Shown one piece after another: positions 1 to 48,971 of a stretch of 64,000 nt of DNA. Every line of letters begins with the position of its first letter. Within the stretch, counting starts at the first letter, position 1. A program made the position numbers and the translations under genes. The notes below the pieces were generated by a model. It was not told where the DNA came from. It ran no database searches and saw only the letters and a list, made by a program, of their open reading frames with translations. Source of the stretch: Chloroflexi bacterium GWB2_49_20 (GTDB taxonomy: Bacteria > Chloroflexota > Anaerolineae > Anaerolineales > Villigracilaceae); assembly GCA_001796335.1 (NCBI GenBank), contig MGMF01000021.1, forward strand, positions 186,001 to 250,000, read 5' to 3'.

Positions 1-268
1 CTGGAGACTCGGTGTTGTTGGAACCTCCATTGGCTTCACCGGCTTACCAGGTTTGGTAGATATGCGCGGAAAACCCGATTTATTCGGCGGAAAACTTCGT
101 ATAACACAAATTGCAGTAGCTGATGAGCTGGCAGCTGCCGCATCTCTTATGATGGGACAGGCTAATGAAGGAAAGCCAGTGATACATGTAAGAGGTTTTC
201 CTTACCCATTACGAAACGGTAAACTTGAAGAGCTCATTCGGCCGCATGAACAGGATATGTTTCGCTAA
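1..268 (+). CDS. cofE: coenzyme F420-0:L-glutamate ligase, C-terminal part (partial)
   Basis: The gene enters from the left edge in frame 2, so only the last 88 or so codons are seen and no start is present. CofE adds glutamate residues to F420-0 using GTP, the last step of F420 synthesis. The visible part has the family's C-terminal pattern: a GVVGTSIGFTGLPGLVD stretch, then DMRGKPDLFGG, a LRITQIAVADELAAAASL helix and the end strand KPVIHVRGFPYP. It lies 36 bases before cofD and 1 base separates cofD from cofC, so the three F420 genes are very likely one transcript. The assignment rests on recognised motifs plus these neighbours. Whether the full protein carries the extra FMN-reductase domain of some fused CofE (FbiB) proteins cannot be told; the C-terminus here ends directly after the ligase domain, so a C-terminal fusion is excluded. 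Confidence 0.88.
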   Translation, partial: WRLGVVGTSIGFTGLPGLVDMRGKPDLFGGKLRITQIAVADELAAAASLMMGQANEGKPVIHVRGFPYPLRNGKLEELIRPHEQDMFR

Positions 269-304: not shown

Positions 305-1243
305 ATGAAAATTGTTGCTCTTGCCGGCGGTGTTGGTGGGGCTAAATTAATAGACGGTTTTGCCAAGAATCTCTCCCCGCTTGATCTAACCATCATCGTA
401 AATACAGGGGATGATTTTAATCATTTGGGAATGCGCATCTGTCCTGATCTTGATACTATATGTTATACACTCGCTGGAATGGCTAATCCTGATACAGGAT
501 GGGGAAGAGAAAATGAATGTTGGACCGTACTTGCAGGTATAAAACAACTCGGTGGTCCGGACTGGTTCCGCATTGGGGACAAAGATTTGGCCACACATCT
601 TGAGCGCTCAAGAAGATTAATGGTAGGTCAGCCACTCAGCCGGATAATTCAAGACTTTTGTAAGTCTTGGAATATTAACCAAAAAGTCCTTCCAATGAGT
701 GACCAAAAAGTTTCAACGATAATCACCACCCTTGAGTACGGAGAAATTTCTTTTCAAGATTATTTTGTTAGAAATAAATGTGCTCCAACTGTTAAAAGAA
801 TCCATTTTGAAGGAATAAAAGATGCTACGCCAACTCCAGGTTTAATTGATGCCATTGAACAGGCTGATGCAATCGTAATATGTCCTTCCAATCCTTGGGT
901 AAGCATCGATCCTATTTTGAGTATTTCCGGAATTCGCACCAGTATAATAAAAAAACCAACAATCGCTGTATCGCCGATCATCAACGGGAAAGCCATAAAA
1001 GGTCCAGCAGCCAAGATGTATTCCGAGCTTGGCATTCAACCGTCCGCTCTTGCAGTGGCAAATCATTATAAAACAATCATTAGCGCAATTGTCATAGATA
1101 ATCAAGACTCAGCTCTATCAGAAGCCATTTCACACCTGGGTATCATACCTTTTGAATGTAATATACTTATGAAATTAACTGAGGATCGCGTTCAAGTGTC
1201 TCAAGATGTGCTAAACTACATAGAGAGGATATTAAACTTGTAA
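305..1243 (+). CDS. cofD: 2-phospho-L-lactate transferase
   Basis: CofD joins the phospho-lactate (or phosphoenolpyruvate-derived) moiety to the deazaflavin Fo, giving F420-0 or dehydro-F420-0, in the cytoplasm. The 312-residue product has the usual family length. It starts with the nucleotide-binding turn GGVGGAKL (residues 8-15), followed by VNTGDDF (32-38) that binds the substrate, and a CPSNPWVSIDPIL segment near residue 200, all typical of the family. The ATG at 305 is the first in frame and gives the conserved N-terminus directly. The gene is followed after one base by cofC, which makes the activated donor, and preceded by cofE. No cofG/cofH (Fo synthase) is visible in this window. Confidence 0.95.
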   Translation: MKIVALAGGVGGAKLIDGFAKNLSPLDLTIIVNTGDDFNHLGMRICPDLDTICYTLAGMANPDTGWGRENECWTVLAGIKQLGGPDWFRIGDKDLATHLERSRRLMVGQPLSRIIQDFCKSWNINQKVLPMSDQKVSTIITTLEYGEISFQDYFVRNKCAPTVKRIHFEGIKDATPTPGLIDAIEQADAIVICPSNPWVSIDPILSISGIRTSIIKKPTIAVSPIINGKAIKGPAAKMYSELGIQPSALAVANHYKTIISAIVIDNQDSALSEAISHLGIIPFECNILMKLTEDRVQVSQDVLNYIERILNL

Positions 1244-1244
1244 T

Positions 1245-1853
1245 ATGACCATCTGGGCTATCGTTCCCGTAAAACCACTACGTTTAGGAAAATCCCGCCT
1301 GGCGGGGACAATCTCCGAAGACGATCGAATTAATCTAAATACAAGGTTATTGGAACATACACTCCGAACACTGGCAAATTTAGCAGAAATTGGTCAGGTA
1401 CTTGTCGTTAGCCGAGATTCTAATGTTCTGGCAATTTCAAGAGAGTTAGGGGCAAAAACTATTTTAGAAAACGGGTCGCCGCATTTAAACACAGCTTTAA
1501 CAAGAGCAACTGTCTTTGCTCAATTGCATTCAATCCATGGAGTATTGATACTTCCTGCTGATTTACCATTGATAACCAGGAATGATATTCTTTCGCTCAT
1601 CAAGCTTGCTGAGAATCCTCCAGTTGTTGTAATTTCACCTGACAGGCGCGAGGAAGGTACGAATGCTCTGTTAATATCACCTGCGGGATTAATTGATTAT
1701 GATTTTGGACCAAATTCATTTGAAAGACATTGCCAACGAGCTAAACTTGCTGCCGCAAGACTCGAAATTGTAAATTTACCTTCTTTGGCATTTGATCTCG
1801 ATATTCCAGAAGACCTGCAAATGTTGGATGATTTATATGACATTGTAAAATAA
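1245..1853 (+). CDS. cofC: 2-phospho-L-lactate guanylyltransferase
   Basis: CofC activates 2-phospholactate (or phosphoenolpyruvate) with GTP for use by CofD. The 202-residue protein begins with the nucleotidyltransferase signature VPVKPLRLGKSRL (residues 7-19), and has LILPADLPL for the metal-binding aspartates and a C-terminal AFDLDIPEDL, all as in MobA-like guanylyltransferases of this family. Its ATG lies one base after the cofD stop, so translation is probably coupled. Which three-carbon acid is used cannot be read from the sequence. Confidence 0.93.
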   Translation: MTIWAIVPVKPLRLGKSRLAGTISEDDRINLNTRLLEHTLRTLANLAEIGQVLVVSRDSNVLAISRELGAKTILENGSPHLNTALTRATVFAQLHSIHGVLILPADLPLITRNDILSLIKLAENPPVVVISPDRREEGTNALLISPAGLIDYDFGPNSFERHCQRAKLAAARLEIVNLPSLAFDLDIPEDLQMLDDLYDIVK

Positions 1854-1880: not shown

Positions 1881-2879
1881 ATGACAAAACGAATCGCGCT
1901 TTATTTGCAAGACTCCCATAACCTAAGAGATGGATTAGATTATGTAAGATATGCAGAAGAACATGGCTTTGAGGCAGTTTGGCAAGCGGAATCACGCTTG
2001 GTTAGGGATGCTATTGTTCCTATGGCAGCATATGCTGCTGTAACAGAAAAAATAAAAGTGGGTTCTGGGGTAATTAATAATTGGACTCGAAATATTGGGT
2101 TATTGGCAGCAACATTTCTTACACTAGACGACCTCGCCCCAAATCGAATAATCTGTGGGATTGGAGCGTGGTGGGATCCACTTGCAAAAAATGTCGGCAT
2201 AGATCGCCGTAAACCTCTTGTTGCCATGCGTGAGACGATAGAAATTCTTCGCCGCTTACTTAATATGGAGCGCGTAACTTACCATGGTGAATTTCATCAT
2301 GTTGACGGCATTGAACTTGATATTGTTCATGGAAGACGTGAACCAAGACATTTACCCATCATGATTGGCGCCACCGGTGACAAGATGATGGAATTGACCG
2401 GTGAGATCGCGGATGGTGTGGTTCTAAATTATTGTGTTCCCCCAGAATATAACGATAGGGCCCTAGAAATGCTGGAAATTGGAGCCCGGAAATTTGGAAG
2501 AACCCTGAACGATCTTGATAGACCTCAATTAGTGGTATGTTCGGTGGATCATGACCATGATTCAGCTTTTGAAACATCCAAAATGCTTCTATGTCAGTAT
2601 CTGGCACAACAACCCCACATCGCCAAAGCATCAGGGGTATCTGATGATATTGTCGCCAAAATTCAATCCATATTGGGTTGGCCGGCAACAAAAGAACAAA
2701 TTAACCAGGCCAAGCACCTTGTGCCCGATGCGTTGGTAAGCCGTATTACCGCTTCTGGCACGCCAGATGAAGCTCGCTTAAAAGTAAACGAATACATTAA
2801 ACGTGGTTGTACATGTCCCATTCTATACCCGGCTGGTGGAGACGTAAACCTACTTATTGAGACATTTTCCCAGAAGTAG
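1881..2879 (+). CDS. LLM-class F420-dependent oxidoreductase
   Basis: A 332-residue luciferase-like monooxygenase-superfamily TIM barrel. Members with this N-terminus ([18 protein letters not shown]) use F420 rather than FMN; the closest well-known relatives are methylene-tetrahydromethanopterin reductases and F420-dependent glucose-6-phosphate dehydrogenases. Internal signatures are [31 protein letters not shown] and [27 protein letters not shown] clear AAGAGGAG ribosome site sits just before the ATG. It follows cofC by 27 bases, so the cofactor genes and a likely user of the cofactor are in one operon. The substrate is unknown; assignment to the F420-dependent branch is supported by the neighbourhood and general motifs, not by a visible specificity residue. 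Confidence 0.88.
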
Positions 2880-2933: not shown

Positions 2934-3398
2934 ATGAAAAAACAACCGAATTCACTTCATTGCTTTATCTGTGGTTTAGAAAATCCAATTGGTTTAAAAC
3001 TTAAGATATATGAGACTGGAGAAGGTATTATTGAGACTACCTTCACAGCTCCAGATCATTTTCAGGGATATCCGGGGGTTCTACACGGAGGCATTGTCGC
3101 TTCTATCCTGGACGAGATCAGCGGTCGCGCCCTGATGGGGGATCCATCCTCTCCCCGCTTCATGTTTACAGGCAAATTGGACGTTAAATACCGGAAAAAT
3201 GTGCCCATCGGTAAACCTCTTCACATTGTAGGGAAAGCGGGTAAGTCCAAAGGAAAAATGGCGGAAGGATGGGCAGGAATTTATAATGAAAACAATGAAT
3301 TACTTGCTGAAGCCAATACCTTGTTAATTGATGTTCCACAGGATTTGCTGGCACAAACAGACTCGAACAACCTTGGGTGGAAAATTTACCCGGATTGA
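2934..3398 (+). CDS. PaaI-type hotdog thioesterase
   Basis: A 154-residue single hotdog-fold protein. The diagnostic PaaI/YbgC-like stretch YPGVLHGGIVASILDE is at residues 46-61, with H51-G52-G53 in the usual place of the active-site loop and D60 or E61 on the following helix. An N-terminal C10-x2-C13 pair resembles the short cysteine motif seen in a subgroup of these proteins. Such enzymes hydrolyse acyl-CoA thioesters; the acyl group is not evident. It lies between the LLM oxidoreductase and the FAD subunit, 16 bases before the latter, so it is probably part of the same transcript. Confidence 0.85.
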   Translation: MKKQPNSLHCFICGLENPIGLKLKIYETGEGIIETTFTAPDHFQGYPGVLHGGIVASILDEISGRALMGDPSSPRFMFTGKLDVKYRKNVPIGKPLHIVGKAGKSKGKMAEGWAGIYNENNELLAEANTLLIDVPQDLLAQTDSNNLGWKIYPD

Positions 3399-3414
3399 CG
3401 CAGGCATACAAAAT

Positions 3415-4179
3415 ATGATAAAGAAGTATTATCGACCTCAATCGCTGCCAGATGCCTTTCTTCTCCTGAATAAACCAAACACAATCCCACTTGCTGGCGG
3501 GACTTATATAACTACTGAAATAAATAGTGAATTTAATGTCGTTGATCTACAGGATCTAGGCCTGGATAAAGTAGTAGTTCAAAATCAAAAAATCGAGATA
3601 GGCTCAACCACTAAACTTCAACAATTGCATCAAAACCAACATATTCCCGAATTCTTCAGGACAGCAATCAAGCTGGAAGCCCCCCTAAATATTAGAAATT
3701 CAGCCAGTCTGGGTGGCTTATTGGTTACGTGTGATGGGAGATCTCCCGTTGCCACATCTTTGCTAGCCTTGGATGCCAGGATTATCCTTGATCCAGATCG
3801 TGAAGAAATATTAATTTCTAATTTTTTTTCTTTTCGCTCCAGCATAACAAGAAAACGTCTTATAACTTCGATAATCTTGCCCTCGCTCCAAAACTTTAGT
3901 TTTGCGTATGTTGCTCGGACTCCATTTGATCGGCCAATCGTAAGCACGGCAATGTCAATGTGGATGAATGGGCGATCAAGGCTGGCTCTTGGCGGATATG
4001 GAGCACAACCACTCCTTGTTATTGATGGTCAAATTTTGGATGACATTTCTTTAGCAGCCCGAAGCGCCTTTAGCAACGCAGAAGATGAGTGGGCCTCAGC
4101 ATACTATAGATCTGAAATGGCAGGTGTTTTAGCCACAAGATGCCTAAAAATAATTAAAAACAAATTCGGGAAGCAATGA
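3415..4179 (+). CDS. molybdenum hydroxylase FAD-binding subunit (CoxM/XdhB type)
   Basis: The middle subunit that carries FAD in xanthine dehydrogenase/CO dehydrogenase-type enzymes. I start at the ATG at 3415 (254 residues): it begins with YYRPQSLPDAFLLL, the usual start of this family, and a longer frame would run into the thioesterase gene. FAD motifs are LAGGTY at residues 26-31 and IRNSASLGGLLVT near residue 97, the equivalents of AGGTDL and IRNxATxGGN. The C-terminal domain (GRSRLALGGYGAQPLL onward) is present but short; the whole protein is some 30 residues shorter than typical members. Its stop overlaps the start of the membrane hydrolase (ATGA at 4176). The Mo/FeS subunit is two genes downstream, so the enzyme genes are split by an unrelated gene. 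Confidence 0.88.
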   Translation: MIKKYYRPQSLPDAFLLLNKPNTIPLAGGTYITTEINSEFNVVDLQDLGLDKVVVQNQKIEIGSTTKLQQLHQNQHIPEFFRTAIKLEAPLNIRNSASLGGLLVTCDGRSPVATSLLALDARIILDPDREEILISNFFSFRSSITRKRLITSIILPSLQNFSFAYVARTPFDRPIVSTAMSMWMNGRSRLALGGYGAQPLLVIDGQILDDISLAARSAFSNAEDEWASAYYRSEMAGVLATRCLKIIKNKFGKQ

Positions 4180-5834
4180 GAAAAAAAATCCAACTAATTA
4201 TCGGTATAACAATATGTCTGGCTATAGCCGTAAGCGCATATCTCTGGGCTACAAATATGATGCAGTCCCTATATCTCTATCGCTCGCCTTTATCAAGGAC
4301 ACCCCCTGCTCCAGGAGAAACAACGGGGTCTTCTGTCACCGCTAAAGTTGTGATCATCCTCGTTGATGCCCTGAGGGTAGATACGGCTTTCAATTCCGAT
4401 ATTATGCCGTCTCTGATTAAATTGCGAAATAATGCGGCCTGGGGAACAATGCACAGCCAACCTCCATCTTACTCAGAACCTGGATGGACAACTTTACTTA
4501 CGGGGGCTTGGCCAGATATATCAGATGGTCCTGCCATGAATTTGGATTATGCAAATATTTATCCATTTACACAGGATAATATTTTTTCTGCAGCTCATCG
4601 CCTTGGATTGAAAACAGCAATTTCCGGGTATTATTGGTTCGAAAAAATGTTGCCTCAAGGATCCACGGATAACAGCTTCTACACCGAAGAGGAGGATAAC
4701 TTGGCAGATCAACAGGTTGTTAATGCCGCTCTGCCCTGGTTAATGGACGATCAAATAAGTCTTTTGCTCATTCACATCGATCAGGTTGATTATGCAGGGC
4801 ATCATGAAGGAGGACCTCGCAGTATAAATTGGGAGGAGGCTGCAAAGCGTGCAGATACCTTGATTAACTCCATTGTCAGCCAGTTGGATTTAAATAAAGC
4901 TACCGTCATAATTGTGTCAGATCATGGACAAATCGATTCCGGTGGTCATGGCGGGCAGGAGACAATTGTCCTTACAGAACCATTTCTATTGGTTGGGAAC
5001 AGTATCACGCCTGGACAATACCCGGATATTCAAATGGTAGATATAGCTCCTACAATCTCCGTATTATTGGGTTTGAATATACCCGCAACAAATCAAGGCC
5101 GACCTCTCTTGAATATGATCACGCTTGGCAAAGACAAAACCTCGCTCGTTAATATCGCTCTCTCCAACCAGCAAGACCAATTACTCAAAATTTATTTGGA
5201 CGCAATTGGTCAAAAAGAAAAATTACTTGATGGGCAAAATATTGTATCTGCAACACAGAATTCTATTTTAAGCGCTCGTAATACGCGTCTTACATCCGAG
5301 CGGCTAAAACGAGGCCTGATTGCTATAATTCTTCTCGGAATGTGTTTATTTCTCGTAATTCAGCGACAAACCAGGAAAACAATTGTTTTTTATCTTCTAA
5401 TCGGAATTATTTATTCCTTGATATTTAATGTTCGCTATGCACTGCTGGATCAACACCCATATTCTCTTTCATGGGTCCCTGGCCAGAAGGAACTAGTTAT
5501 TTATATAGCAGTTACAACCACAATCGCTTATCTGATGTGTTGGTTAATGTTTAACTTGTTCATGAAGACATTTACAAAAAAACCCATTGAAGCTGCTCGT
5601 CAAACGATATTTTTGACAATTTCAACCATATTTATAGTTGCGATACCTTTATATCTAAGTTTTGTCATAAATGGTTTTCTGGTTTCTTGGACACTTCCTG
5701 ATATGCTCAGCATGTATCTGGCTTTCGTGGCTCTACTCCAGTGTATGGTGATTGCAATCATTGGAATCTTTCTCGCTGGATTATCAGTACCAATAAGCTT
5801 TGTAGCCAGACGATTTACCGGAGTTACTATTTAA
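4176..5834 (+). CDS. membrane alkaline-phosphatase-superfamily hydrolase (phosphodiesterase/nucleotide pyrophosphatase type)
   Basis: A 552-residue membrane protein. Residues 5-25 form an N-terminal signal anchor. The extracytoplasmic domain starts with the metal site at D64 in IILVDALRVD, followed by SEPGWTTLLTG with the nucleophile Thr, then HIDQVDYAGHHEG and IIVSDHGQIDSGGHG with the remaining Asp/His metal ligands. After about residue 390 there are four hydrophobic segments. This domain order resembles GPI ethanolamine phosphate transferase-like proteins and other type I phosphodiesterases. It could be a phosphodiesterase or a phospho-group transferase acting outside the membrane. It overlaps both neighbours (ATGA with the FAD subunit, TAATG with the Mo subunit), so it is locked into the hydroxylase operon although no link to that enzyme is known to me. 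Confidence 0.85.
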   Translation: MRKKIQLIIGITICLAIAVSAYLWATNMMQSLYLYRSPLSRTPPAPGETTGSSVTAKVVIILVDALRVDTAFNSDIMPSLIKLRNNAAWGTMHSQPPSYSEPGWTTLLTGAWPDISDGPAMNLDYANIYPFTQDNIFSAAHRLGLKTAISGYYWFEKMLPQGSTDNSFYTEEEDNLADQQVVNAALPWLMDDQISLLLIHIDQVDYAGHHEGGPRSINWEEAAKRADTLINSIVSQLDLNKATVIIVSDHGQIDSGGHGGQETIVLTEPFLLVGNSITPGQYPDIQMVDIAPTISVLLGLNIPATNQGRPLLNMITLGKDKTSLVNIALSNQQDQLLKIYLDAIGQKEKLLDGQNIVSATQNSILSARNTRLTSERLKRGLIAIILLGMCLFLVIQRQTRKTIVFYLLIGIIYSLIFNVRYALLDQHPYSLSWVPGQKELVIYIAVTTTIAYLMCWLMFNLFMKTFTKKPIEAARQTIFLTISTIFIVAIPLYLSFVINGFLVSWTLPDMLSMYLAFVALLQCMVIAIIGIFLAGLSVPISFVARRFTGVTI

Positions 5835-8752
5835 TGAATATTAACCTTTTAATAAATGGTGTGCAAAGCGATTTCACTGTTTCCCCTGGGGACACTTTAT
5901 TTACTGTATTGCGTAAGGCTGGTTACTATTCCATAAAGTTTGGCGATGAGCACGGCTTTTCCGGGGTTGATACAGTTTTATTAGATGGAGATCCAATAAA
6001 CTCAGGTCTAATTCTCGCTGCTCAGGCCGAAGGTCACAAAATTGTAACTGCAGAAGCCCTGGGAGATTTTCCTGATCAAGGATGGAAGAAAACCGAGGGG
6101 TTGCATCCACTTCAGCTCGCATTTATCGAGACCGGGGCGATTCAATGTGGATACTGTACACCTGCCCAGCTACTTGCCTCCAAAGCTCTCTTGGACAAAA
6201 ACCCCAACCCAACTGAAGAAGATATTCGAGAAGCTTTATCGGGTGTGTTATGTCGGTGTACGGGCTACCAAAAACCAGTTGAGGCTGTCCTGGTGGCTGC
6301 TTCAAAAATGCGTAATGATATACCTTTTGAATCGAGCTCAAATTTAATGGTACCAACAGATTCTAAAAACGATTTTAAAACAGTTGGCAAACCTGCAATA
6401 AAGAGCGATGCCGTAAAATTAGCCCAAGGAAAGCCGGCTTTTACGGCAGATATCGAAATGAAGGGGATGTTATTCGCCAAAGTACTGTTTAGCCCTCATG
6501 CGCATGCACGCATCCGCAGTATAGACACATGTCGAGCCGGCGCCTTGCCTGGTGTTGCAGTCATATTGACCTGGAAAGATATCCCCCGCGTGGTTTACTC
6601 AACAGCAGGACAATCTGACCCTATCCCAGGACCTTTGGACACCTTTTCACTTGATAACAAGGTACGTTTTGTTGGCGATAGAGTTGCTTTTGTAGCCGCA
6701 GAAAGCATCGAAATTGCTGAAAAGGCCATTAAATTAATAAAAGTTGATTATGAATTACTGGACCCTGTTTTAAATTCATCTGCTGCACAAAGAGATGGTG
6801 CGCCCATTTTGCACGATGAACCGGAATACCAGAATTTTGCGAATTCAAATCCACAAAAAAATCTTGCTGCAGAAATCAGGATAGATATTGGTGATGTAGA
6901 AAAAGGATTTTCTGAAGCCGATGAAATTATTGAGGAGGACTACGAAGTATCCAAAGTTCAGCAAGCCCACCTTGAACCACATGTTGTGGTTACCTATTGG
7001 GATGCCGATGATCGCCTTGTCATTCGAACCAGTACCCAGGTACCCTTTCACGTACGAAGAGTCTTAGCACCGGTATTGAATTTACCGATTAAAAGAATAC
7101 GTGTTATTAAACCTCGTATCGGAGGTGGTTTTGGCGGAAAACAGGAAATATTAATTGAGGACATCGCTGCCCACTTAACAATTGCGACCAAAAGACCCGT
7201 TATCCTTGAATACACACGCGAAGACGAATTTATAGCATCACGCTCACGCCATCCCATGAAAATTCATATGAAAACCGGGGTCAAAAAAGATGGCACAATA
7301 ACCGCCAATGAAATGGTAGTCCTTTCAAACACAGGTGCGTATGGGTGTCATGCCCTAACGGTGACTGGAAATACAGGTCATAAATCCATGGCACTCTATA
7401 TTGGTGATGGCAAGTATCGGAAATCGCCTAATATTAGATTTTACGCTGATGTTGTCTATACGAATACCCCTCCATCTGGCGCTTTTCGAGGATATGGGGT
7501 TCCACAGGGTTTTTGGCCTCTCGAACGCCACATGGAAATAATTGCCAATAAGTTGGGATTGGATCCGCTGGAATTTCGTCAAAAAAACACCATCCGTGCT
7601 GGTGAATTTCATCCATTTAGCACGGTGTGGAACGAAGGTCGCGAACCTCGTCCTGAAGTAATAAATACTGTTGGTTTGGAAGAATGTGTCAGGCAAGGCA
7701 AATTGGCCATCGGATGGGATCAAAAATACAATAACCAGAGTTGGCATTCAAATCATCACAACTCACATAAATCTTCAATCCGAAAAGGAATTGGTGTCGC
7801 ACTGGTCATGCAGGGAACTGCAATTCCATATTTGGATATGGGTGGTGCTTCGATCAAAATGAATGACGATGGTTCATTCAATTTACTGGTTGGCGCAACG
7901 GACCTGGGTACAGGATCCGATACAGTTCTAGGGCAAATGGCTGCTGAAATCCTCGGTGTTCCACTGGATGATATTATTACATATTCTTCAGATACAGATT
8001 TCACACCGTTTGACAAAGGTGCGTACGCTTCCAGCACAACTTATGTATCTGGTACAGCTGTCGTTCAAGCAGCGAAACTGGTTGCTGAGAGGATAAGAAT
8101 TCGTGCTGCCGAATTGCTTAAAGCCACAGAACATGATCTGATAATTCTAATGGATAGAAAAGCTATTTCCCCTGACGGACGCTTTGTTTATTACACCGAC
8201 ATTGCCCTAAGTACCTTACATCATTTTAAACAGGAACAAATTATGGCGGTCGCGTCTTTTGTTGCAGAAAACTCACCGCCTCCATTTGCCGCCCAATTTG
8301 CAGAAGTTTCTGTAGACACTGAAACCGGCCAGATCGTTGTAGACAAACTTGTCATGGCTGTAGATTCAGGGCAGATCATTAATCCAAGTACTGCCTTCGG
8401 ACAAATAGAGGGGGGTATGACACAAGCGCTTGGATATGCATTGTGCGAAGAAATGGTTTATGATAATTCCGGCAAAGCAAGAGAAAAAGATTTTTTAAAT
8501 TATCATATTTTTAGAGCCAACGAAATGCCTGAACTCATATCAATTTTTGTGGAAACAAAAGAACCCAGCCACCCATTTGGTGTTAAAGCAGTAGCGGAAA
8601 TCCCCATGGATGGTGTAGCCCCGGCCATTGGTAATGCAATTTGGGATGCAATTGGAGTTGAGATAAAAACATTACCAATTACACCCGAAAAAATCTGGCG
8701 AGCTCTAAAGTCAAAAAATTCGAATCATATAAAAACTAATAATTTACAATGA
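5834..8752 (+). CDS. fused [2Fe-2S]/molybdopterin subunit of a molybdenum hydroxylase, distal cluster ligands missing
   Basis: A 972-residue fusion of the small iron-sulfur subunit and the large molybdenum subunit of the xanthine oxidase family. I use the ATG at 5834 that overlaps the previous stop. Residues 1-75 form the plant-ferredoxin-like domain, but the four cluster cysteines are replaced by D38, S43, D46 and G58 with the surrounding frame (KFG...G...TVLLDG) intact. The second, helical FeS domain is normal: CGYC at 105-108 and CRC at 140-142. The Mo domain follows from about residue 180, with GGGFGGKQE, GAFRGYGVPQ, GATDLGTGSDTVLGQ and the catalytic glutamate in VKAVAEIPMDG. Substrate cannot be assigned from sequence. 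It is followed by xdhC (4-base overlap), which matures the cofactor. Confidence 0.93.
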   Translation: MNINLLINGVQSDFTVSPGDTLFTVLRKAGYYSIKFGDEHGFSGVDTVLLDGDPINSGLILAAQAEGHKIVTAEALGDFPDQGWKKTEGLHPLQLAFIETGAIQCGYCTPAQLLASKALLDKNPNPTEEDIREALSGVLCRCTGYQKPVEAVLVAASKMRNDIPFESSSNLMVPTDSKNDFKTVGKPAIKSDAVKLAQGKPAFTADIEMKGMLFAKVLFSPHAHARIRSIDTCRAGALPGVAVILTWKDIPRVVYSTAGQSDPIPGPLDTFSLDNKVRFVGDRVAFVAAESIEIAEKAIKLIKVDYELLDPVLNSSAAQRDGAPILHDEPEYQNFANSNPQKNLAAEIRIDIGDVEKGFSEADEIIEEDYEVSKVQQAHLEPHVVVTYWDADDRLVIRTSTQVPFHVRRVLAPVLNLPIKRIRVIKPRIGGGFGGKQEILIEDIAAHLTIATKRPVILEYTREDEFIASRSRHPMKIHMKTGVKKDGTITANEMVVLSNTGAYGCHALTVTGNTGHKSMALYIGDGKYRKSPNIRFYADVVYTNTPPSGAFRGYGVPQGFWPLERHMEIIANKLGLDPLEFRQKNTIRAGEFHPFSTVWNEGREPRPEVINTVGLEECVRQGKLAIGWDQKYNNQSWHSNHHNSHKSSIRKGIGVALVMQGTAIPYLDMGGASIKMNDDGSFNLLVGATDLGTGSDTVLGQMAAEILGVPLDDIITYSSDTDFTPFDKGAYASSTTYVSGTAVVQAAKLVAERIRIRAAELLKATEHDLIILMDRKAISPDGRFVYYTDIALSTLHHFKQEQIMAVASFVAENSPPPFAAQFAEVSVDTETGQIVVDKLVMAVDSGQIINPSTAFGQIEGGMTQALGYALCEEMVYDNSGKAREKDFLNYHIFRANEMPELISIFVETKEPSHPFGVKAVAEIPMDGVAPAIGNAIWDAIGVEIKTLPITPEKIWRALKSKNSNHIKTNNLQ

Positions 8753-9546
8753 AATCTATATATCAGGCACTTCTGGAACTTGAACAAAATTCGAAATCAG
8801 CAGCTCTTTGCACAGTCGTTAAAACAAGTGGCTCAACCCCTCGCCATTCAACCAGTAAGATGTTGGTGTTTCCCGACAGCCCGATTATCGGTTCAGTTGG
8901 TGGAGGAGAATTAGAAAACCAGGTTGTACTAGAAGCCAAACTTGTTATTAAGAATAAACACGCCAAGTTAATTGAATATAAAATGACGGATCCAGCGCAA
9001 GGAGATGTTGGAGTATGTGGAGGTCAGGTTATGGTATTTATTGAGCCAATTATTCCTTCTCCTTTGATCGTTATCATTGGAGGCGGTCATGTTGGAAAAG
9101 CTGTTGCTCATATATCTAAATGGCTTGGCTTTCGGGTTGCCATTTCAGATGATCGTCCGGAATTTTGCACCCCAGAAGCGAATCCAGATGCAGACATCTT
9201 TTTTCCGATAGAAATGAAATATTTACCAGATCAGCTCGTAATAACCGATCAAACCTATCTGGTTTTAACCACACGTGGAGTCTCCACTGACATCGAAGGT
9301 TTACCTGCGTTATTGAAAACATCCGCTGGATTCATAGGTATAATAGGCTCTAAACGACGGTGGGCCGAGACGGTTAAACAACTCGGATCCAAGGGGATAA
9401 CTCGGGAAGATCTGGCTAGAATTCACTCCCCCATTGGTCTCGAAATCAATGCAGAAACTCCAGAAGAGATTGCCGTAAGTATTCTGGCTGAAATACTCAT
9501 GCATCATCACAAGGGTACTGGAAAGCCAATGAAGGAGCAACCTTGA
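8749..9546 (+). CDS. xdhC: XdhC/CoxI family molybdenum cofactor maturation protein
   Basis: XdhC-type proteins bind molybdenum cofactor, promote its sulfuration and hand it to the hydroxylase. The 265-residue protein has the N-terminal XdhC_CoxI domain (GSTPRHSTSKML, then GSVGGGELENQV near residues 48-59 and a CGGQ turn near 91) and the C-terminal Rossmann domain beginning IVIIGGGHVGKAVAH, with ISDDRPEF after the second strand. The end has the family's GSKRRW and HSPIGLEINAETPEEIAVSILAEI. The gene overlaps the Mo subunit by four bases (ATGA). This pairing strongly supports that the upstream fusion is a functional molybdoenzyme needing a sulfurated cofactor. Confidence 0.94.
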   Translation: MKSIYQALLELEQNSKSAALCTVVKTSGSTPRHSTSKMLVFPDSPIIGSVGGGELENQVVLEAKLVIKNKHAKLIEYKMTDPAQGDVGVCGGQVMVFIEPIIPSPLIVIIGGGHVGKAVAHISKWLGFRVAISDDRPEFCTPEANPDADIFFPIEMKYLPDQLVITDQTYLVLTTRGVSTDIEGLPALLKTSAGFIGIIGSKRRWAETVKQLGSKGITREDLARIHSPIGLEINAETPEEIAVSILAEILMHHHKGTGKPMKEQP

Positions 9547-12596: not shown

Positions 12597-14429
12597 CTAA
12601 TCATCGGGGTTTGTGAAATAAAATTCTTTTACAAGCTCTTTCAATCCAAGTTTTTCTAATTTATCCCTATTGGGAATACCTGTTAATTTATCCCACTCTC
12701 TTGCAGAATAATAGGCATCCAGCATCTCATCAAATGGTATTGTATATCCAGCTGATCCACCATCCGGCAATGGCTTTAAGAAAGCTTGTGGCAATTTATC
12801 ATTCGCCTTATTCAATCCCATACGAATATTGATACATCTCTTAAGGTTCCAGGAACGTTCGCCAGATAAAATAAGCTCCTCTTGGGATAATTCCAAACCT
12901 GTTGCTGTATTTATGAGATCCTTAATCATTTCAATTGGAATGTTTGAAAACAAGCATAGAACAAGAGCGTCAAATATAGTTCTATAGTCTTGATGCCTGG
13001 CTACATTAGCAGCTTTTTCAGCTCCATCCTGTCGCGAGAAATAACCAATGCCGATTGATTCATTAGTCTGTCCCCAATCAACCATAAAATAATCAGACTT
13101 GTTATGGCAGGCGCCCCTGGGGCTGGTAGCGTAAACCAACGCCATACCTGACGCACCTCGTGGATCGTGGTATGGCACTTCAAGACCATTTACCTGGATA
13201 GCTTCTTCTTCCACGCCAAAGGTTTTTGCAAATTTCCTTGCGCCATCTGCCATGATATCCCCTATTCCAACACGCTGGGCAATTAGGTGAATTAACTCTT
13301 TTGCACTGGATGTATTCCCCCAAACCAATTCCAGTCCTCCGGTATCTGCTTTGCTAATCGTGCCATCCTCGTACATTTTATACGCCAAACCAATAACATT
13401 TCCAGTACTGATCGTATCAAGACCATGGAGGTCGCATAATTCGTTTAAATGTACAATAGAGTTAACATCTTTATTCAACAGATTTGGGCCGAAACTTACT
13501 AATGTCTCATATTCAGGTCCCTTTCTATGTTTTCCATCGCCTACATCAACTACCCGACCACACGCAATCACACACCCATGGCACGCACTGGTGCCAACCA
13601 AGATGGTCTCACTTATTATGGATCCAGAAATATTTTCAGATCCGCTAAAAATCCCTTGTGAATAATATTTTTTCGGCATTATCCCCAAATAATCGCTGTA
13701 ATCAGTAATACTGGCTGTACCCAGTTCGTGAACCACTTGTGTGACTAAATCATTCCGCAAGAAACGGTTTGCTGAAGATCGAAAACTATTATAAGCTTCT
13801 GGTTGAGCTAAAAGTAATTTTCCCGCGCCTCGCACCGCGATCGCCTTCAGCTTTTTGGAACCCATTACAGCGCCTAATCCAGTCCGCCCGGCAGTTCTCC
13901 CATGATCGCAGAATAGGCCAGAATACAAAACCTTGTTTTCACCTGCCGGACCAATCGCCAGAACTTTCGCTTTAGGCTGGTTAATTTCTTCCTTTATTCT
14001 TTTCTGTATTTCGTACGTATCAAGCCCCCATAAATGGTCTGCGGTCTGAATGGTCACCTCCCCGTCAATAATCGAAATAAACGAAGCAGTATCAGAGTTT
14101 CCCGTTATCCATAAGCCATCATAACCTGCAAATCGAAGCTCTGGGCCCCAAAATCCTCCGCAATTTGATTCCCCCCATAATCCAGTTGCTGGAGATTTTC
14201 CACAAACTACAAATCTACCTACAGCCGGGCCGAGCGTTCCAGTCAGTGGCCCACCCAGAAAAAGCAGTGGAGCTTCAGGAGAAAATGGATCAAGATCTTT
14301 TGTTAAATATTCATATAGTATCCGGGCACCTAATGATGCTCCACCTATGTAATCTCGCACCCATGCTTCAGGAACTTCGAACGATTTGCATATCCCTGTT
14401 GATAAATTTATCTTTAATATTGGTTGCAT
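12597..14429 (-). CDS. aldehyde:ferredoxin oxidoreductase family tungstoenzyme
   Basis: A 610-residue member of the AOR/FOR family, which oxidises aldehydes to acids (or the reverse) with ferredoxin and a tungsten or molybdenum bis-pterin. The N-terminus has the pterin-binding domain (YIGGASLGARILYEYL, GGPLTGTLGPAVGRF, GESNCGGFWGPELRFAGYD). The [4Fe-4S] ligands are C283, C286, C290 (CHGCVIAC) and C492 (LVLCLFSN), with the usual spacing. HDPRGASGMALVYATSPRGACH and NLKRCINIRMGLNK are further family blocks. Length is normal. An SCP2-domain gene directly upstream (17 bases) and nnr downstream suggest one transcript. Substrate is not predictable. Confidence 0.94.
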   Translation of the reverse strand: MQPILKINLSTGICKSFEVPEAWVRDYIGGASLGARILYEYLTKDLDPFSPEAPLLFLGGPLTGTLGPAVGRFVVCGKSPATGLWGESNCGGFWGPELRFAGYDGLWITGNSDTASFISIIDGEVTIQTADHLWGLDTYEIQKRIKEEINQPKAKVLAIGPAGENKVLYSGLFCDHGRTAGRTGLGAVMGSKKLKAIAVRGAGKLLLAQPEAYNSFRSSANRFLRNDLVTQVVHELGTASITDYSDYLGIMPKKYYSQGIFSGSENISGSIISETILVGTSACHGCVIACGRVVDVGDGKHRKGPEYETLVSFGPNLLNKDVNSIVHLNELCDLHGLDTISTGNVIGLAYKMYEDGTISKADTGGLELVWGNTSSAKELIHLIAQRVGIGDIMADGARKFAKTFGVEEEAIQVNGLEVPYHDPRGASGMALVYATSPRGACHNKSDYFMVDWGQTNESIGIGYFSRQDGAEKAANVARHQDYRTIFDALVLCLFSNIPIEMIKDLINTATGLELSQEELILSGERSWNLKRCINIRMGLNKANDKLPQAFLKPLPDGGSAGYTIPFDEMLDAYYSAREWDKLTGIPNRDKLEKLGLKELVKEFYFTNPDD

Positions 14430-14446: not shown

Positions 14447-14854
14447 TTACAATATTTCATCGGTTACTTCGCGTGCGCAACGAACAAAATCCAACACTGT
14501 TGGAACATTTCGCATCATAATGGCCATATTCCCCTGAACTTTCAATTTTCGAGTTAACATGGCTTGCATCGGGTCTAATTTGCCTTTCATAATCTGGGCA
14601 ATATTGTCATAGCTGGCTGTTAACACAAAAACTGGTTTTTCTTCTTCTGGATTTTCCAATATCGCAGCACGCCGGCATTTTCCATGCCAAAGATCCAAAT
14701 AATAATAAATAGTTTCTTTTACGTTTCCACTTGGTTCGATCACAACGCACATATCCCCCTCCCACCTTGCTGCTATGGACGCATATTTTTTATCCCTATT
14801 CAATTTCTCACACAATGTGTTCAACCACTCAGGACTAGGAAATATCGGATTCAT
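14447..14854 (-). CDS. SCP2 sterol-binding-like domain protein
   Basis: A 135-residue protein with an SCP2-like fold: a central region of VVIEPSGNVKETIYYYLDLWHGKC, then FVLTASYDNIAQIMKGKLDPMQAML and KLKVQGNMAIMM (I give only parts of each). The KGKLDPMQA...GKLKVQGNM pattern is typical of SCP2 domains, which bind hydrophobic acyl compounds. I choose the ATG at 14854 because GGAGG sits five bases before it; the GTG two codons earlier overlaps that site. It is the first gene of the operon with the aldehyde:ferredoxin oxidoreductase, a pairing that suggests handling of a hydrophobic aldehyde or acid, though this is only inference. Confidence 0.8.
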   Translation of the reverse strand: MNPIFPSPEWLNTLCEKLNRDKKYASIAARWEGDMCVVIEPSGNVKETIYYYLDLWHGKCRRAAILENPEEEKPVFVLTASYDNIAQIMKGKLDPMQAMLTRKLKVQGNMAIMMRNVPTVLDFVRCAREVTDEIL

Positions 14855-15125
14855 GCGCACCTCCGCTTTGCATAAGTTATTTATTATATCAATTATTATT
14901 CGACTTGAGCTATAACTGTTAATAATAAATATTCAAACGATAAATCTATGGTTAATATTTCATCAATTCGATATATAATGGATATGCACATTTAAGGTTT
15001 ATAATTTATCCTTATTACTTGGCAAGTAATTTATCAAAGAAAAAGGAGGCTGCATATTTCCAATTAATATTTTAATATCTTTATAAATGAATTTGAGAAG
15101 GAATATAATCAAACCGGAGGAGAAC

Positions 15126-45131: not shown

Positions 45132-48100
45132 CTACTTGTGAATGACGATGGATCCTCCACCTAATTCCGTTAATTGGGTGGCATCATCCGCCGCGTCAAG
45201 CATATTGTCGTAAATGATTTTATCTGTTGACTTTTCCCAAATTTTGATTCGGAATCTATCCACTCCGCCACCACCGCTGATCTGGCCATCTATGGCAGTG
45301 AGCATGAAGCCGTATTCGCCCGCACCATTGATTGCGCCGGTTCCCTTGAATTGAGCTCTTGCTCCAGCAACCACCAGCCACTCATAACTGGTGCTCTTGA
45401 AGTCCAGATCGCCAGCCTTGAATTGGAATTGGGTATTGCCATCCGGGACGGTGGCACCCTTCTTGTACTTGGCCACAAAACCAAAGGTAGCCTTACCCGA
45501 CAAGTCTGGATAGGCTATGTACGCTCCTTCAGGGGAATTGATCCATCCGGCACCAGTGACGAAGCCGGCAGCAGGGTCGTACACGACCAGCAGGATACAT
45601 GAGGACTCGCCTATGGCTCCCCCAACGTCCGTGCCGCGCACACACAGATCATAGACGCCAGGTGCGGATGGGGCAGTGATGGTCGCTGTGACATCTTCGC
45701 CGACCGCGTCAAAGGCACCATCCTGCGCCTGCATGCCAGCCCAGGTGCCGCCGCCATCCAGGCTGTACTCAGCAGAAAGGATATCGGAACCACCCCTGCT
45801 GGTGTCGTCCACGTTGGCTGTCAGAGTTATCAAGGCGCCCACTGGCACTAGATTAAGATTGGCGACCACATTGGAGGTGACTGGGCCGGCACATGAAATA
45901 TCCAGGTTGGGCTGGAAGCCGGGTGTGGAGTTTTCAGTGTCTGTGCCGTCGCACAACCACGGGTCGAAGTCCACAGTGTTGCTGTTGTATAAGTAGATGG
46001 GGGAGCCTATGCCTGAGCCTACGCCAGAAGGTCCACTGGAATCGCCCCACCAATTCATCTCAACGTTGGCATTACCTAAATTGAGGTTGAGAGGGTTGCC
46101 TACAATAGAGTTTTGGTGTAGCTCGAATGTCGTGTCTGGCGCGTTCAAAAGAATACCAAACCCGCTGTTGAGAATTATGTTGTTGTTAAACTCTGCGGTC
46201 TGCGCGTTGGCGGCTACACCGCCATTATTCTCATGAAGATAGTTATTGTTGATTTTCGCCCCTGTACTCCCTGTTTCTATGACAATGGCCGCATACCCAG
46301 TCACATTATAAATCTCGTTGCCATCGATGTTTGCATTGTCTGCGAGCTCCCTGGCCAAGATCCCGTTGCCCTGGGTGCCATGGATATTATTGCCGATAAC
46401 AGTGGCAGTACCCGAGAAGCTGCCCAGATTGATCCCATCATAGGTGGAACCGTCGATGGTGTTGCCAGTTATTTCGAGATTGATTGCTCCCCACGACTCA
46501 ATCGGTCGCACAGTGTTTGTTAGCGTATTTGATGTTATGTTCACTGTGCCACCATTTATGCCTATGCCAAAGATGGGATATTCGGGGCCGGTGGGCGTGT
46601 TGCTGATTGTATTATTGGCTATAGTCGTGGTACCTATGTTACCGCCATCTATCTGGATGCCACGTTTTCCGCCGGTTATGGTGTTGTACTGGATAGTGTT
46701 GCTGCCGGCACCCACAGTATTGTCCACCCAAATGGCATAGAGCAAAGGTGGGGATGCCCAGTAACCGGAAGTGGCCATCGTGATGGTATTCCCGTCTACC
46801 TGGGTGGAGCCTCCGATCATATTGCCTGTGGAGCCGTTGGACAGGCCAATCGCCACGTCATCGGTCCCACCAACAGGCCCGATGATCGTGTTCCCTGATA
46901 CTGCATTGTTGTCTGCGTCGCTCAGAGTAATGCCTCGTTTGATATTGTCAGTCAGTTCGTTGTTCAAAATGAAATTGTTATTAGATCCATCCTCGAGGTT
47001 GATGCCGTAGAAGTTACCGTTGACATGGTTGCCGGAGATGGTTAGCCCGGAGGATGTCCAGGCGACGATGCCCCCGGCTGCCCATGGATCGGAGCGGGTA
47101 TGCCCGGTGATGGTATTGCTTGTCACAGCGCCTGTGGTAACATCCTGGATATTGATGCCGTTCAGTGGTGTGGCTGAACCTGTGACGGTGTTGTTGCTGA
47201 CCGTTACATTGCCACCAATGACAAGGATGCCATCGCGGGTGTAGTCGCTGATGTCGTTATCGTTCAGCGTAAGCAGGGAATCACCGTACACAGCCAATCC
47301 CCAGCTTTCATATGCCGGTGTTGCGGCAAAGTTGTGGATCGTGCTGGCAAAAAGTCCAGCCAGCGTGCCGCTAGCATCTTTTACGTCGCGGAAGAACACT
47401 CCGTCCAACCGGGCTGTGCCCGTAGTCTTGTTCTGTCCGTTGACATCCAGCGTGAAGCCTTCCACGCGTACATCAATGGTACCATTGGTGGCATACGCAG
47501 CCAGGAGATAGTCGTGAGTGGTTCCGTTGTGAGTCACCGAACCTGCCCGTGCGGTTGGGGCGAGGATCGTGGTTGATCCTTCACCTGCACCGATCAGCTC
47601 CAGGGACTTGGTGATGGTGACCTGTTCTGTGTACGTCCCCGCCGCCACGTTGACCGTGCTGCCACTGACCAGGTTGATGCTTTCCTGGATACGTCCAGTG
47701 GAACTGGTCTGGGAGCCAAGCGTGTGAACCGTGAGTGAAGAAAGGCTTGGTTGAAAACCTGGTGCTGGATCATTTGTATCGGTCCCGCTATCCAGCAATG
47801 GCGTGAAGTCCACTGTGCCGGAAATATTCCCCGCCACCGTAGCTAGGTCTGTGCTACCCCAATAATTGCTGGAGGCATCAATTGTTGAACCAAGCGACCC
47901 ATCCGCCTTCAATCCATAAAACAGATTACCGGCGATGGAATTGTTGTTGATTGTGATAGTCCCGTTCAGGCCCGTCACAATGATGCCGTTGCCGCTCGGG
48001 ACATGAACAACATTATTACGAATGTTGGCGCTGACCCCTCCGGCTGGATCGTTGTTCGAGGGCGTGCTGACGTTCTTCAGATAGACTGCACCGTTCAGAT

Positions 48101-48971
48101 TCGTGATGTCCGTCGTCGCAAAGTCAAAATTGTTGTCTTCAATCACAACATTCGTGAACTTGCCTGGCGTTTGGCCCGAGAACCCACCAGAGAACTGCAC
48201 GCCTGTGGACGCGAAATTGACGAACTTATTTCCCTTGATCTCCTGCAGAGAGGTAACATTCATCGATCCATATGTGATCGCCTCGATGGCACGGCCTCCG
48301 TATTTATAGCCATCTGTATACGTTCCCGTGAACAACGCGTCGAAGGTGTTGTTCTCCACCGTCGTGGCGCCAGATTGCCGCTCCAGCAATATGGCGTGAT
48401 ACATGTTTTTGAAATAATTGTTGCTGATGACCAGTTCCCCCGTGCCTGTGTATGCCCACAAGCCATAGTCCTCTCCCAACCCCACAGAGTTGCCATGACC
48501 GATGATCTTGGAATTCTGAATCGTCCGTGACTGGGCACCTTTTGTGAGGATGGCGAAATAGGTGCCGCTGCTCGTTGCGCCATTGACAATCTTGAATCCC
48601 TTGAAGACTACGGGACCAGTGGGATTGTAGATACGCACCTGTCCATCTAATGTGAGTGAGGTGCTGTTTTGACCGTCGATCACGACATTGTCCGGATTCA
48701 GCTCGTCACCGACAATCGTAAGTCCCTTAGTGATGACAACCTGTTCTGTGTACGTCCCCGCGGCCACGTTGATCGTATCGCCTTCTGAGGCAGCGTTGAT
48801 CGCCGCCTGGATAGTCTGGCATTGAAAGGTAGGAGATATACAGTTGGAATTATCTGCCAGCGCGGCGTTGACCGTCCAGGAGCCAGCTGCCTGAGCCGGA
48901 ACCGTCCATACCCCTATCAGCACCAAAGCCACCAGCACTGCCAGGTTAAAGATGATCGATTTTGCTTTCAT
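45132..48971 (-). CDS. large secreted right-handed beta-helix protein
   Basis: A 1279-residue exported protein. Residues 1-28 are a Sec signal peptide ending in PAQA-A. The mature part starts with a CQTIQAAINAASEGDTINVAAGTYTEQV block (in part), the NosD/pectate-lyase-like start, and this whole beginning is repeated at about residue 430 (VHTLGSQTSSTGRIQES...NVAAGTYTEQV). Between and after lie many short NxIxxNxI turns of parallel beta-helix (PbH1) repeats. Residues about 1090-1160 form an Ig-like segment (SAEYSLDGGGTW). The C-terminus from GAGWINSPEGAY to GGGSIVIHK is a post-COAP-like beta domain. No LPXTG, transmembrane end or catalytic triad is seen. It could bind or cleave polysaccharide, or act as adhesin. 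GGAG precedes the ATG. Confidence 0.85.
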   Translation of the reverse strand: MKAKSIIFNLAVLVALVLIGVWTVPAQAAGSWTVNAALADNSNCISPTFQCQTIQAAINAASEGDTINVAAGTYTEQVVITKGLTIVGDELNPDNVVIDGQNSTSLTLDGQVRIYNPTGPVVFKGFKIVNGATSSGTYFAILTKGAQSRTIQNSKIIGHGNSVGLGEDYGLWAYTGTGELVISNNYFKNMYHAILLERQSGATTVENNTFDALFTGTYTDGYKYGGRAIEAITYGSMNVTSLQEIKGNKFVNFASTGVQFSGGFSGQTPGKFTNVVIEDNNFDFATTDITNLNGAVYLKNVSTPSNNDPAGGVSANIRNNVVHVPSGNGIIVTGLNGTITINNNSIAGNLFYGLKADGSLGSTIDASSNYWGSTDLATVAGNISGTVDFTPLLDSGTDTNDPAPGFQPSLSSLTVHTLGSQTSSTGRIQESINLVSGSTVNVAAGTYTEQVTITKSLELIGAGEGSTTILAPTARAGSVTHNGTTHDYLLAAYATNGTIDVRVEGFTLDVNGQNKTTGTARLDGVFFRDVKDASGTLAGLFASTIHNFAATPAYESWGLAVYGDSLLTLNDNDISDYTRDGILVIGGNVTVSNNTVTGSATPLNGINIQDVTTGAVTSNTITGHTRSDPWAAGGIVAWTSSGLTISGNHVNGNFYGINLEDGSNNNFILNNELTDNIKRGITLSDADNNAVSGNTIIGPVGGTDDVAIGLSNGSTGNMIGGSTQVDGNTITMATSGYWASPPLLYAIWVDNTVGAGSNTIQYNTITGGKRGIQIDGGNIGTTTIANNTISNTPTGPEYPIFGIGINGGTVNITSNTLTNTVRPIESWGAINLEITGNTIDGSTYDGINLGSFSGTATVIGNNIHGTQGNGILARELADNANIDGNEIYNVTGYAAIVIETGSTGAKINNNYLHENNGGVAANAQTAEFNNNIILNSGFGILLNAPDTTFELHQNSIVGNPLNLNLGNANVEMNWWGDSSGPSGVGSGIGSPIYLYNSNTVDFDPWLCDGTDTENSTPGFQPNLDISCAGPVTSNVVANLNLVPVGALITLTANVDDTSRGGSDILSAEYSLDGGGTWAGMQAQDGAFDAVGEDVTATITAPSAPGVYDLCVRGTDVGGAIGESSCILLVVYDPAAGFVTGAGWINSPEGAYIAYPDLSGKATFGFVAKYKKGATVPDGNTQFQFKAGDLDFKSTSYEWLVVAGARAQFKGTGAINGAGEYGFMLTAIDGQISGGGGVDRFRIKIWEKSTDKIIYDNMLDAADDATQLTELGGGSIVIHK

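Follow-up and report, generated by a model that had tools for sequence, protein, structure and literature searches.

The DNA stretch analysed here, referred to as the window, comprises 64,000 nucleotides of contig MGMF01000021.1 from Chloroflexi bacterium GWB2_49_20 (positions 186,001 to 250,000 of the forward strand) and carries near its 5' end an xdhD-like gene for a fused iron-sulfur (FeS)/molybdenum (Mo) protein, which is predicted to be a urate reductase. In this protein, all four cysteine ligands of the distal [2Fe-2S] cluster are replaced, and those of the proximal cluster are kept. The initial annotation of the sequence had recognised the replacement and had missed that the loss is common to a clade and that distal, proximal, or both ligand sets disappeared on several occasions within the XdhD-like family, XdhD of E. 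coli included. A relay of two clusters is generally taken as a constant of the xanthine oxidase family. It is also described as constant for molybdenum hydroxylases (PMC4548258). No mention of a loss of FeS ligands in XdhD or its relatives was found in the literature searched, which covered titles, abstracts, and passages of selected papers, and the terms cysteine and 2Fe-2S are absent from the main text of PMC12507026.

The fused protein and its cysteine-free N-terminal domain

The features of the locus are collected in Table 1. The start codon of the xdhD-like gene overlaps the stop codon of the preceding gene, and xdhC begins within its 3' end. Alignments to L027, a cysteine-bearing relative with 71% identity to the window protein, and to the FeS subunit XdhC of E. 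coli agree with the initial annotation in placing D38, S43, D46, and G58 at the four distal cysteine positions. Its statement that C105, C108, C140, and C142 and the Mo domain are intact is likewise borne out, by the alignment, by the Fer2_2 match (PF01799), and by matches of the Mo-binding and hammerhead domains (PF02738, PF20256, PF01315) far above their cut-offs. Since no cysteine precedes C105 in the whole N-terminal stretch of the translated open reading frame, there is no substitute ligand set in the distal domain. Two details of the motif as first described need correction: TVLLDG and NS are separated by three residues and not by four, and the alignment, gap-free with L027 and others, requires a one-residue gap (KFGGC) for some relatives.

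A match to the Pfam domain Fer2 is absent from the window protein, both at full length and for residues 1-80 alone. Among isolated N-terminal stretches of seven proteins, Fer2 was matched in L027 and L165, which both bear the cysteines, and unmatched in those of the window protein, L010, L082, L160, and E. coli XdhD. The absence of Fer2 alone proves nothing, since the full-length XdhD of Cetobacterium, in which the cysteines are present, also lacks the match.

AlphaFold models of the window protein reach mean predicted local distance difference test scores of 87.3 (whole chain) and 89.4 (residues 1-165), and the [2Fe-2S] fold is kept in them: the model of residues 1-165 superimposes on the [2Fe-2S] subunits 1rm6_C (Z score 24.6, 1.3 Å, 154 aligned residues) and 3hrd_H (Z 24.2, 1.2 Å, 153 aligned). 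The first of these belongs to the 4-hydroxybenzoyl-CoA reductase of Thauera (1rm6), which is the top match for the N-terminal part and also for the Mo part (Z 39.4, 721 aligned, 1.9 Å). This enzyme catalyses a reductive dehydroxylation by a member of the xanthine oxidase family, and it is built of separate subunits with both [2Fe-2S] clusters and an extra [4Fe-4S] cluster in the subunit binding flavin adenine dinucleotide (FAD). The aldehyde oxidoreductase of Desulfovibrio gigas (1sij) resembles the window protein in being a fused FeS/Mo chain (model residues 1-960, 850 aligned, 2.2 Å, Z 37.4) and differs in having both [2Fe-2S] clusters and no FAD (PMC10223205), as well as in being named for aldehyde oxidation, unlike the role predicted here.

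Table 1 Features of the xdhD region. Positions are those of the window except for the first row; scores are in bits, with cut-offs in parentheses where given
Feature	Position	Strand	Match or remark
ssnA and npdG, just upstream of the window	G000:C21:183460-185504		SsnA TIGR03314 488.2 (455.5); NpdG TIGR01915 192.8 (149.8)
cofE 3' end, coenzyme F420-0:L-glutamate ligase	1..268	+	TIGR01916 248.4 (180.65)
cofD, 2-phospho-L-lactate transferase	305..1243	+	TIGR01819 294.8 (257.45)
cofC, 2-phospho-L-lactate guanylyltransferase	1245..1853	+	TIGR03552 155.7 (105)
Luciferase-family (F420-type) oxidoreductase, candidate yanthine reductase	1881..2879	+	PF00296 214.6
Hotdog-fold thioesterase-like protein	2934..3398	+	PF03061 29.3; often adjoins ygfM in relatives
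ygfM-like FAD-binding subunit, 254 residues	3415..4179	+	PF00941 75.8 (27); ATG at 3415
Membrane phosphodiesterase/phosphatase-like protein, between ygfM and xdhD	4176..5834	+	PF01663 82.8
xdhD-like fused FeS/Mo protein, predicted urate reductase	5834..8752	+	972 residues; ATG at 5834, stop codon ends at 8752
N-terminal domain, [2Fe-2S] beta-grasp fold, cysteine-free, residues 1-80	5834..6073	+	
Codons of D38 (5945-5947), S43 (5960-5962), and D46 (5969-5971), former distal ligands 1-3	5945..5971	+	
Codon of G58, former distal ligand 4	6005..6007	+	
Proximal ligands C105, C108, C140, C142, intact	6146..6259	+	PF01799 94.9
E601 codon, matching E606 of E. coli XdhD	7634..7636	+	
E922 codon, presumed catalytic glutamate at the Mo site	8597..8599	+	
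xdhC-type Mo-cofactor maturation factor	8749..9546	+	PF13478 134.1; PF02625 69.6

Repeated loss of ligands and conservation of the altered domain

Relatives were collected in similarity searches with the window protein and L082, and the proportions given here are not a census. After removal of 4 duplicates, the 151 loci obtained (numbered with the prefix L) leave 147 distinct ones, the window and E. coli included; at 20 of these, fragments and three-subunit forms among them, the distal motif is unreadable, at 19 together with the proximal one. The 127 loci readable for both motifs comprise 65 with the full set of cysteines, 47 that have lost the distal set (distal-lost), 14 that have lost both sets (double-lost), and a single one, L165, that has lost only the proximal set, where a locus counts as double-lost once at least three of its four proximal ligands are replaced (L050, L159, and L160 retain one proximal cysteine). 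With the state of the window protein shared by 47 of 127 loci, a sequencing error as its cause was rejected.

A tree of the Mo domain was calculated from the 146 rows with enough columns, thinned to 139, and requires by parsimony at least five changes of the distal and at least five of the proximal state. The window protein belongs to a 48-row clade whose readable rows are all distal-lost. Three proteins nested in this clade, L008, L050, and L071, have also lost the proximal set, which suggests that within the clade proximal loss came after distal loss. A single origin of distal loss was rejected: in a 47-row quick tree of the Mo domain, uniting all 22 distal-lost rows in one clade costs 525.8 log-likelihood units (approximately unbiased test, p = 1e-39), and one shared loss for the window clade together with L033, L086, and L046 stays compatible with the tree (same test, p = 0.53). 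One loss followed by swapping of N-terminal domains between genes was discarded as well, the tree of this domain (127 rows, ligand columns removed, 6 changes by parsimony, 61 of 124 inner branches open) also failing to unite the cysteine-less domains.

The XdhD protein of E. coli lacks all eight cluster cysteines. Its sister in a 28-row quick tree (support 100) is the XdhD of Cetobacterium, and as this sister keeps all eight, the E. coli line most likely lost both sets on its own. The losses range from one set, as in the window protein, to both, as in E. coli, several Chloroflexota, and an actinomycete. The reverse of the window protein is found at L165 (G242, xdhD at 2978-5941 on the minus strand), where the distal CCCC is kept and the proximal positions are occupied by S/D/S/E; SsnA is present in that genome.

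Conservation was examined in 41 window-clade proteins with distal loss and a retained proximal set, L033 included. D38, E39, and D46 are invariant in all 41, position 43 is always serine or threonine, and G58 is a glycine in 37. Relaxed constraint on the cysteine-less domain is unsupported: the ratio of its divergence to that of the Mo domain is 1.84 in 40 window-clade proteins and does not exceed the 2.08 of 29 cysteine-bearing relatives, a reference set that was picked by hand and differs from the former in mean divergence (0.175 and 0.228). The invariance of D38 and D46 and the fold kept in the model together indicate that the domain is not decaying. Of the proposal that the protein lacks a relay step or uses the folded domain only as a scaffold, the missing ligands and the modelled fold thus agree with the first part and with a scaffold as such, and the invariant aspartates leave room for a domain that may do more. 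The Mo site is similarly constant: E922, which we take to be the counterpart of bovine Glu1261, is a glutamate in 46 of the 47 distal-lost proteins (the remaining one has a gap) and in all 14 double-lost ones, and Q402 and E601 are retained in 47/47 and 14/14, respectively.

Gene context and the predicted function in urate reduction

The genes around xdhD follow the order ssnA-npdG-cofE-cofD-cofC-luciferase-hotdog-ygfM-phosphodiesterase-xdhD-xdhC, with ssnA two genes ahead of cofE. The xdhC gene and the FAD subunit assigned to this operon in the initial annotation are indeed present, the FAD gene starting at 3415 and being separated from xdhD by the phosphodiesterase-like gene, which is rarely conserved (among the 80 named loci L036-L115, many of which have short flanks, it occurs at 4). 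The YgfM-like subunit scores 78.7 bits on TIGR03312 (YgfM), its best curated model (cut-off 241.5), and contains both double-glycine motifs, AGGTY and SLGGL, which presumably bind FAD, a role known from CO dehydrogenase. For the luciferase-family protein, the best NCBIfam matches are F420-dependent families, all below their cut-offs among the matches listed. In Chloroflexota ssnA clusters, a luciferase-family gene of the F420 type has been reported in place of YgfK or UacX and proposed to act as yanthine reductase (PMC12507026); the window locus fits this published pattern and adds genes for F420 synthesis and F420-NADP reduction. The same order without the phosphodiesterase-like gene occurs at L053, L054, L058, L060, L062, L065, L076, and L086. 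Seven of these eight loci encode all cysteines, and only L086 is distal-lost, so that the expected homologues with a cysteine-less domain beside an FAD subunit and F420 genes exist in this instance; in the other distal-lost loci the linkage is mostly broken.

The closest functional reference is XdhD-YgfM of E. coli, which is reported to convert urate to yanthine with reduced nicotinamide adenine dinucleotide (NADH); the assay contained 1 mM NADH and 10 uM enzyme, with controls omitting enzyme or substrate and no rate stated in the passages cited, and XdhD co-purified with a protein of ~30 kDa taken to be YgfM (PMC12507026). Both systems combine a fused FeS/Mo chain with a small FAD subunit encoded beside ssnA, and both chains have lost the distal cysteines and carry aspartate at ligand positions 1 and 3. 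They differ in that the E. coli protein has lost the proximal cysteines too and has glutamine where the window protein has R552, and in that the E. coli cluster contains ygfK, for which the window has F420 and luciferase-family genes instead. The gene for Cetobacterium somerae XdhD (plasmid NZ_CP143320.1) is likewise clustered with ssnA, hydA, an xdhC-type gene, and the gene for an FAD subunit; its product differs from the window protein in keeping all eight cluster cysteines.

Residue E606 of E. coli XdhD, the equivalent of E601, has been proposed from modelling to orient urate (PMC12507026, section 6). The glutamate is also present in 54 of the 65 full-cysteine proteins, and E. coli XdhA has a gap at this segment in the alignment. 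The SsnA search covered the genomes of 69 rows: the glutamate and SsnA occur together in 52, the glutamate only in 6, SsnA only in none, and neither in 11; the glutamate is thus found in 52/52 rows with SsnA in the genome and missing in 11/17 rows without it. In 400 genomes of the phylum of the window, XdhD-like proteins were detected in 62 and SsnA in 67 (both in 47, XdhD only in 15, SsnA only in 20, neither in 318), each search scoring few candidates (2, later mostly 4 per genome), with misses possible. Twelve genomes were reached via the loci, and SsnA was matched in 11 of them, in 8 above the cut-off, the miss being the genome of L107. The double-lost proteins L050, L071, L080, L081, L082, L085, and L097 are all from genomes with an SsnA match, five of them above the cut-off.

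Eleven full-cysteine Chloroflexota proteins (L177-L183, L185, L186, L188, and L189) lack the glutamate, and all 11 are from genomes without an SsnA match; they probably act on a different substrate. The genome of the window also encodes a D-hydantoinase above the cut-off (TIGR02033, 470.2 bits) at G000:C21:261965-263413, ~67 kb from xdhD, which might serve the HyuA step. Another fused Mo hydroxylase of this genome, L002 (G000:C21:272249-275041), has all eight cysteines and comes near the selenium-dependent xanthine dehydrogenase, with 795.6 bits on TIGR03311 (cut-off 830.45).

Electron supply and alternative explanations

With moderate confidence, we interpret the window protein as a Chloroflexota XdhD-like Mo urate reductase that would contain the proximal cluster only, take electrons into Mo, and work with the ygfM-like FAD subunit; it represents an infrequent variant within an established type of enzyme and not a new type. 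The enzyme would initiate reductive urate breakdown by removing the 6-oxygen of urate, which yields yanthine. A low-potential donor, either the FAD in YgfM or a carrier reduced by F420H2 or NADPH, would deliver electrons to the proximal cluster, the only [2Fe-2S] cluster predicted to be bound, and from there to Mo. The ferredoxin-like domain may be kept as a folded clamp, in which the two invariant aspartates probably replace hydrogen bonds formerly made to the cluster. As xdhD stands in a run of genes of the urate-reduction type, Mo most likely receives the electrons, which reverses the flow from Mo to FAD assumed initially.

For electron transfer, a tunnelling rule with zero driving force and a reorganisation energy of 0.7-1.0 eV was used. 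The steps published for Kdh, a member of the family with a solved structure, are 13.5 Å for Mo-FeS, 13.8 Å for FeS-FeS, and 10.8 Å for FeS-FAD (PMC8305194), and the path lengths given here are sums of these steps and not distances in the window protein. Skipping the distal cluster leaves 24.6 Å between FAD and the proximal cluster and predicts 10^-1.8 to 10^-2.7 per second in Kdh geometry, which is too slow, so that the window type would need closer docking of YgfM or another donor. Skipping both clusters leaves 38.1 Å between FAD and Mo and ~10^-10 per second, and therefore the double-lost type could not use the standard wire in this geometry.

Besides the slow transfer over 24.6 Å, several observations weigh against the proximal-cluster urate reductase proposed here. 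The best curated model of the window protein is indeed TIGR03313 (XdhD), but its 738.7 bits lie below the cut-off of 1101.9 (as do the 1032.5 bits of the full-cysteine Cetobacterium XdhD), and its identity to E. coli XdhD is 40%. At loci with at least 9 kb, ssnA/F420 genes are found in the fetched stretch of only 4 of 20 distal-lost loci, the window included, and of 0 of 11 double-lost versus 22 of 51 full-cysteine loci, a count from which L049, a longer copy of L008 that does carry ssnA, was omitted as a duplicate. At the threshold used, SsnA is missing from the genomes of 2 distal-lost rows out of 26 and of 3 double-lost rows out of 6, and these figures, like the co-occurrence and E601 counts above, ignore relatedness. 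No YgeX above the cut-off was found in the genome of the window, the best candidate reaching 39.4 bits (cut-off 532.25). Finally, a tie between cluster loss and loss of the FAD motifs of YgfM was rejected for want of a simple correlation, and L165 rules out a strict outside-in order of loss (FAD site, distal, proximal) as a rule.

A tentative alternative, clearly less probable than a urate reductase served by YgfM, is that another reduced protein docks directly by the proximal cluster or Mo. This donor could be ferredoxin or the luciferase-family protein that depends on F420, and in other clades a DHO_dh/UacX-like flavoprotein; YgfM would then be structural or vestigial, and the distal cluster would have been lost after FAD no longer fed it. 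The erosion of double-glycine motifs in several YgfM proteins, among them L080, L081, L082, and L085 (second motif) and L084, L089, L105, and L156 (first motif), would fit this course of events. At the double-lost loci L159 and L160, a DHO_dh (UacX-like) gene lies directly upstream of xdhD (5936-6937 on the minus and 6737-7744 on the plus strand, respectively), and ygfM was not found in the fetched stretches. For the clostridial XdhAC, the physiological donor is stated to be unknown (PMC12990295). However, motif erosion does not track cluster loss: the double-lost loci L097, L161, L162, and L172 keep both motifs, some full-cysteine lines have lost one, and the YgfM of the window has both intact (a ygfM gene was recognised near 92 of the 147 loci, many of the rest having too little flank to judge). 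The co-purification of E. coli XdhD with the presumed YgfM and the use of NADH in its assay (PMC12507026) also speak for the FAD subunit.

A broader proposal, to which we give about the same limited weight, is that XdhD-type reductases do not need a FAD-FeS-FeS-Mo wire at all: an external donor might give electrons or hydride directly at Mo, or the reaction might be a redox-neutral purine transhydroxylation, and the clusters would be dispensable and hence lost repeatedly. For the double-lost E. coli enzyme, activity with NADH is reported (PMC12507026) despite a path of ~38 Å and ~10^-10 per second if the Kdh steps are summed; either geometry, donor, or reaction must differ from what is assumed. 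The transhydroxylation of xanthine to yanthine is disfavoured as the main E. coli activity, since a strain without xdhA leaves xanthine unconsumed in M9 glucose (PMC12507026), which weakens this part of the proposal.

Unlikely, in our judgement, is an oxidase or dehydrogenase for a substrate other than urate that would tolerate a slow outer relay. The score below the TIGR03313 cut-off, the nearly equal score of 688.9 bits on NF043082 (the model for XdhA, cut-off 780), and the rare linkage of ssnA and F420 genes in distal-lost relatives would be in line with such an enzyme, but the gene run of the window protein contains ssnA and F420 genes, E601 is present and co-occurs with SsnA, and E. coli XdhA lacks the E601 segment. 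Still less probable is a D38/S43/D46 site that binds metal, as an Asp/Ser-ligated cluster or a mononuclear ion. The invariance in the window clade described above and the recurrence of D..[ST]..D in L090/L102/L107, L080/L082/L085, and L046/L051, the first two groups lying apart from the window clade in the Mo tree, would fit such a site; yet position 58, mostly glycine, offers no ligand, the four positions read S/T/A/D in another clade and D/A/D/S in E. coli, and ligation of a cluster by aspartate alone would be very unusual. A decaying or regulatory pseudo-enzyme, to which the repeated loss of cofactor ligands and the full-cysteine L002 in the same genome might point, is very improbable in view of the retention of Q402, E601, and E922, the divergence ratio of the N-terminal domain, the activity reported for double-lost E. 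coli XdhD (PMC12507026), and the wide retention of its gene, the 5'-terminal 504 bases of which are found, at least 80% covered, in 5128 out of 5426 E. coli genomes.

Relay ligands have gone missing in several lines whose Mo site and modelled fold are retained, as is SsnA in most genomes tested, a finding that exposes an untested assumption on the electron supply of urate reductases. In gut bacteria, an enzyme of this type begins the reductive breakdown of urate. The natural series of proteins with ligands for two, one, and zero clusters offers a direct route to test how electrons are supplied.

Elsewhere in the window, an aldehyde:ferredoxin-oxidoreductase-like protein is encoded at 12597-14429 on the minus strand (188 bits to NF007354, below the cut-off), for which tungsten is our guess, and beside it lies a gene for an SCP2-domain protein at 14447-14860. 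The G+C content is 0.40-0.43 in the first 40 kb and 0.45-0.52 in the last 24 kb (40000-64000), and a scan of the open reading frames in this latter part revealed a beta-helix protein of 1279 residues at 45132-48971.

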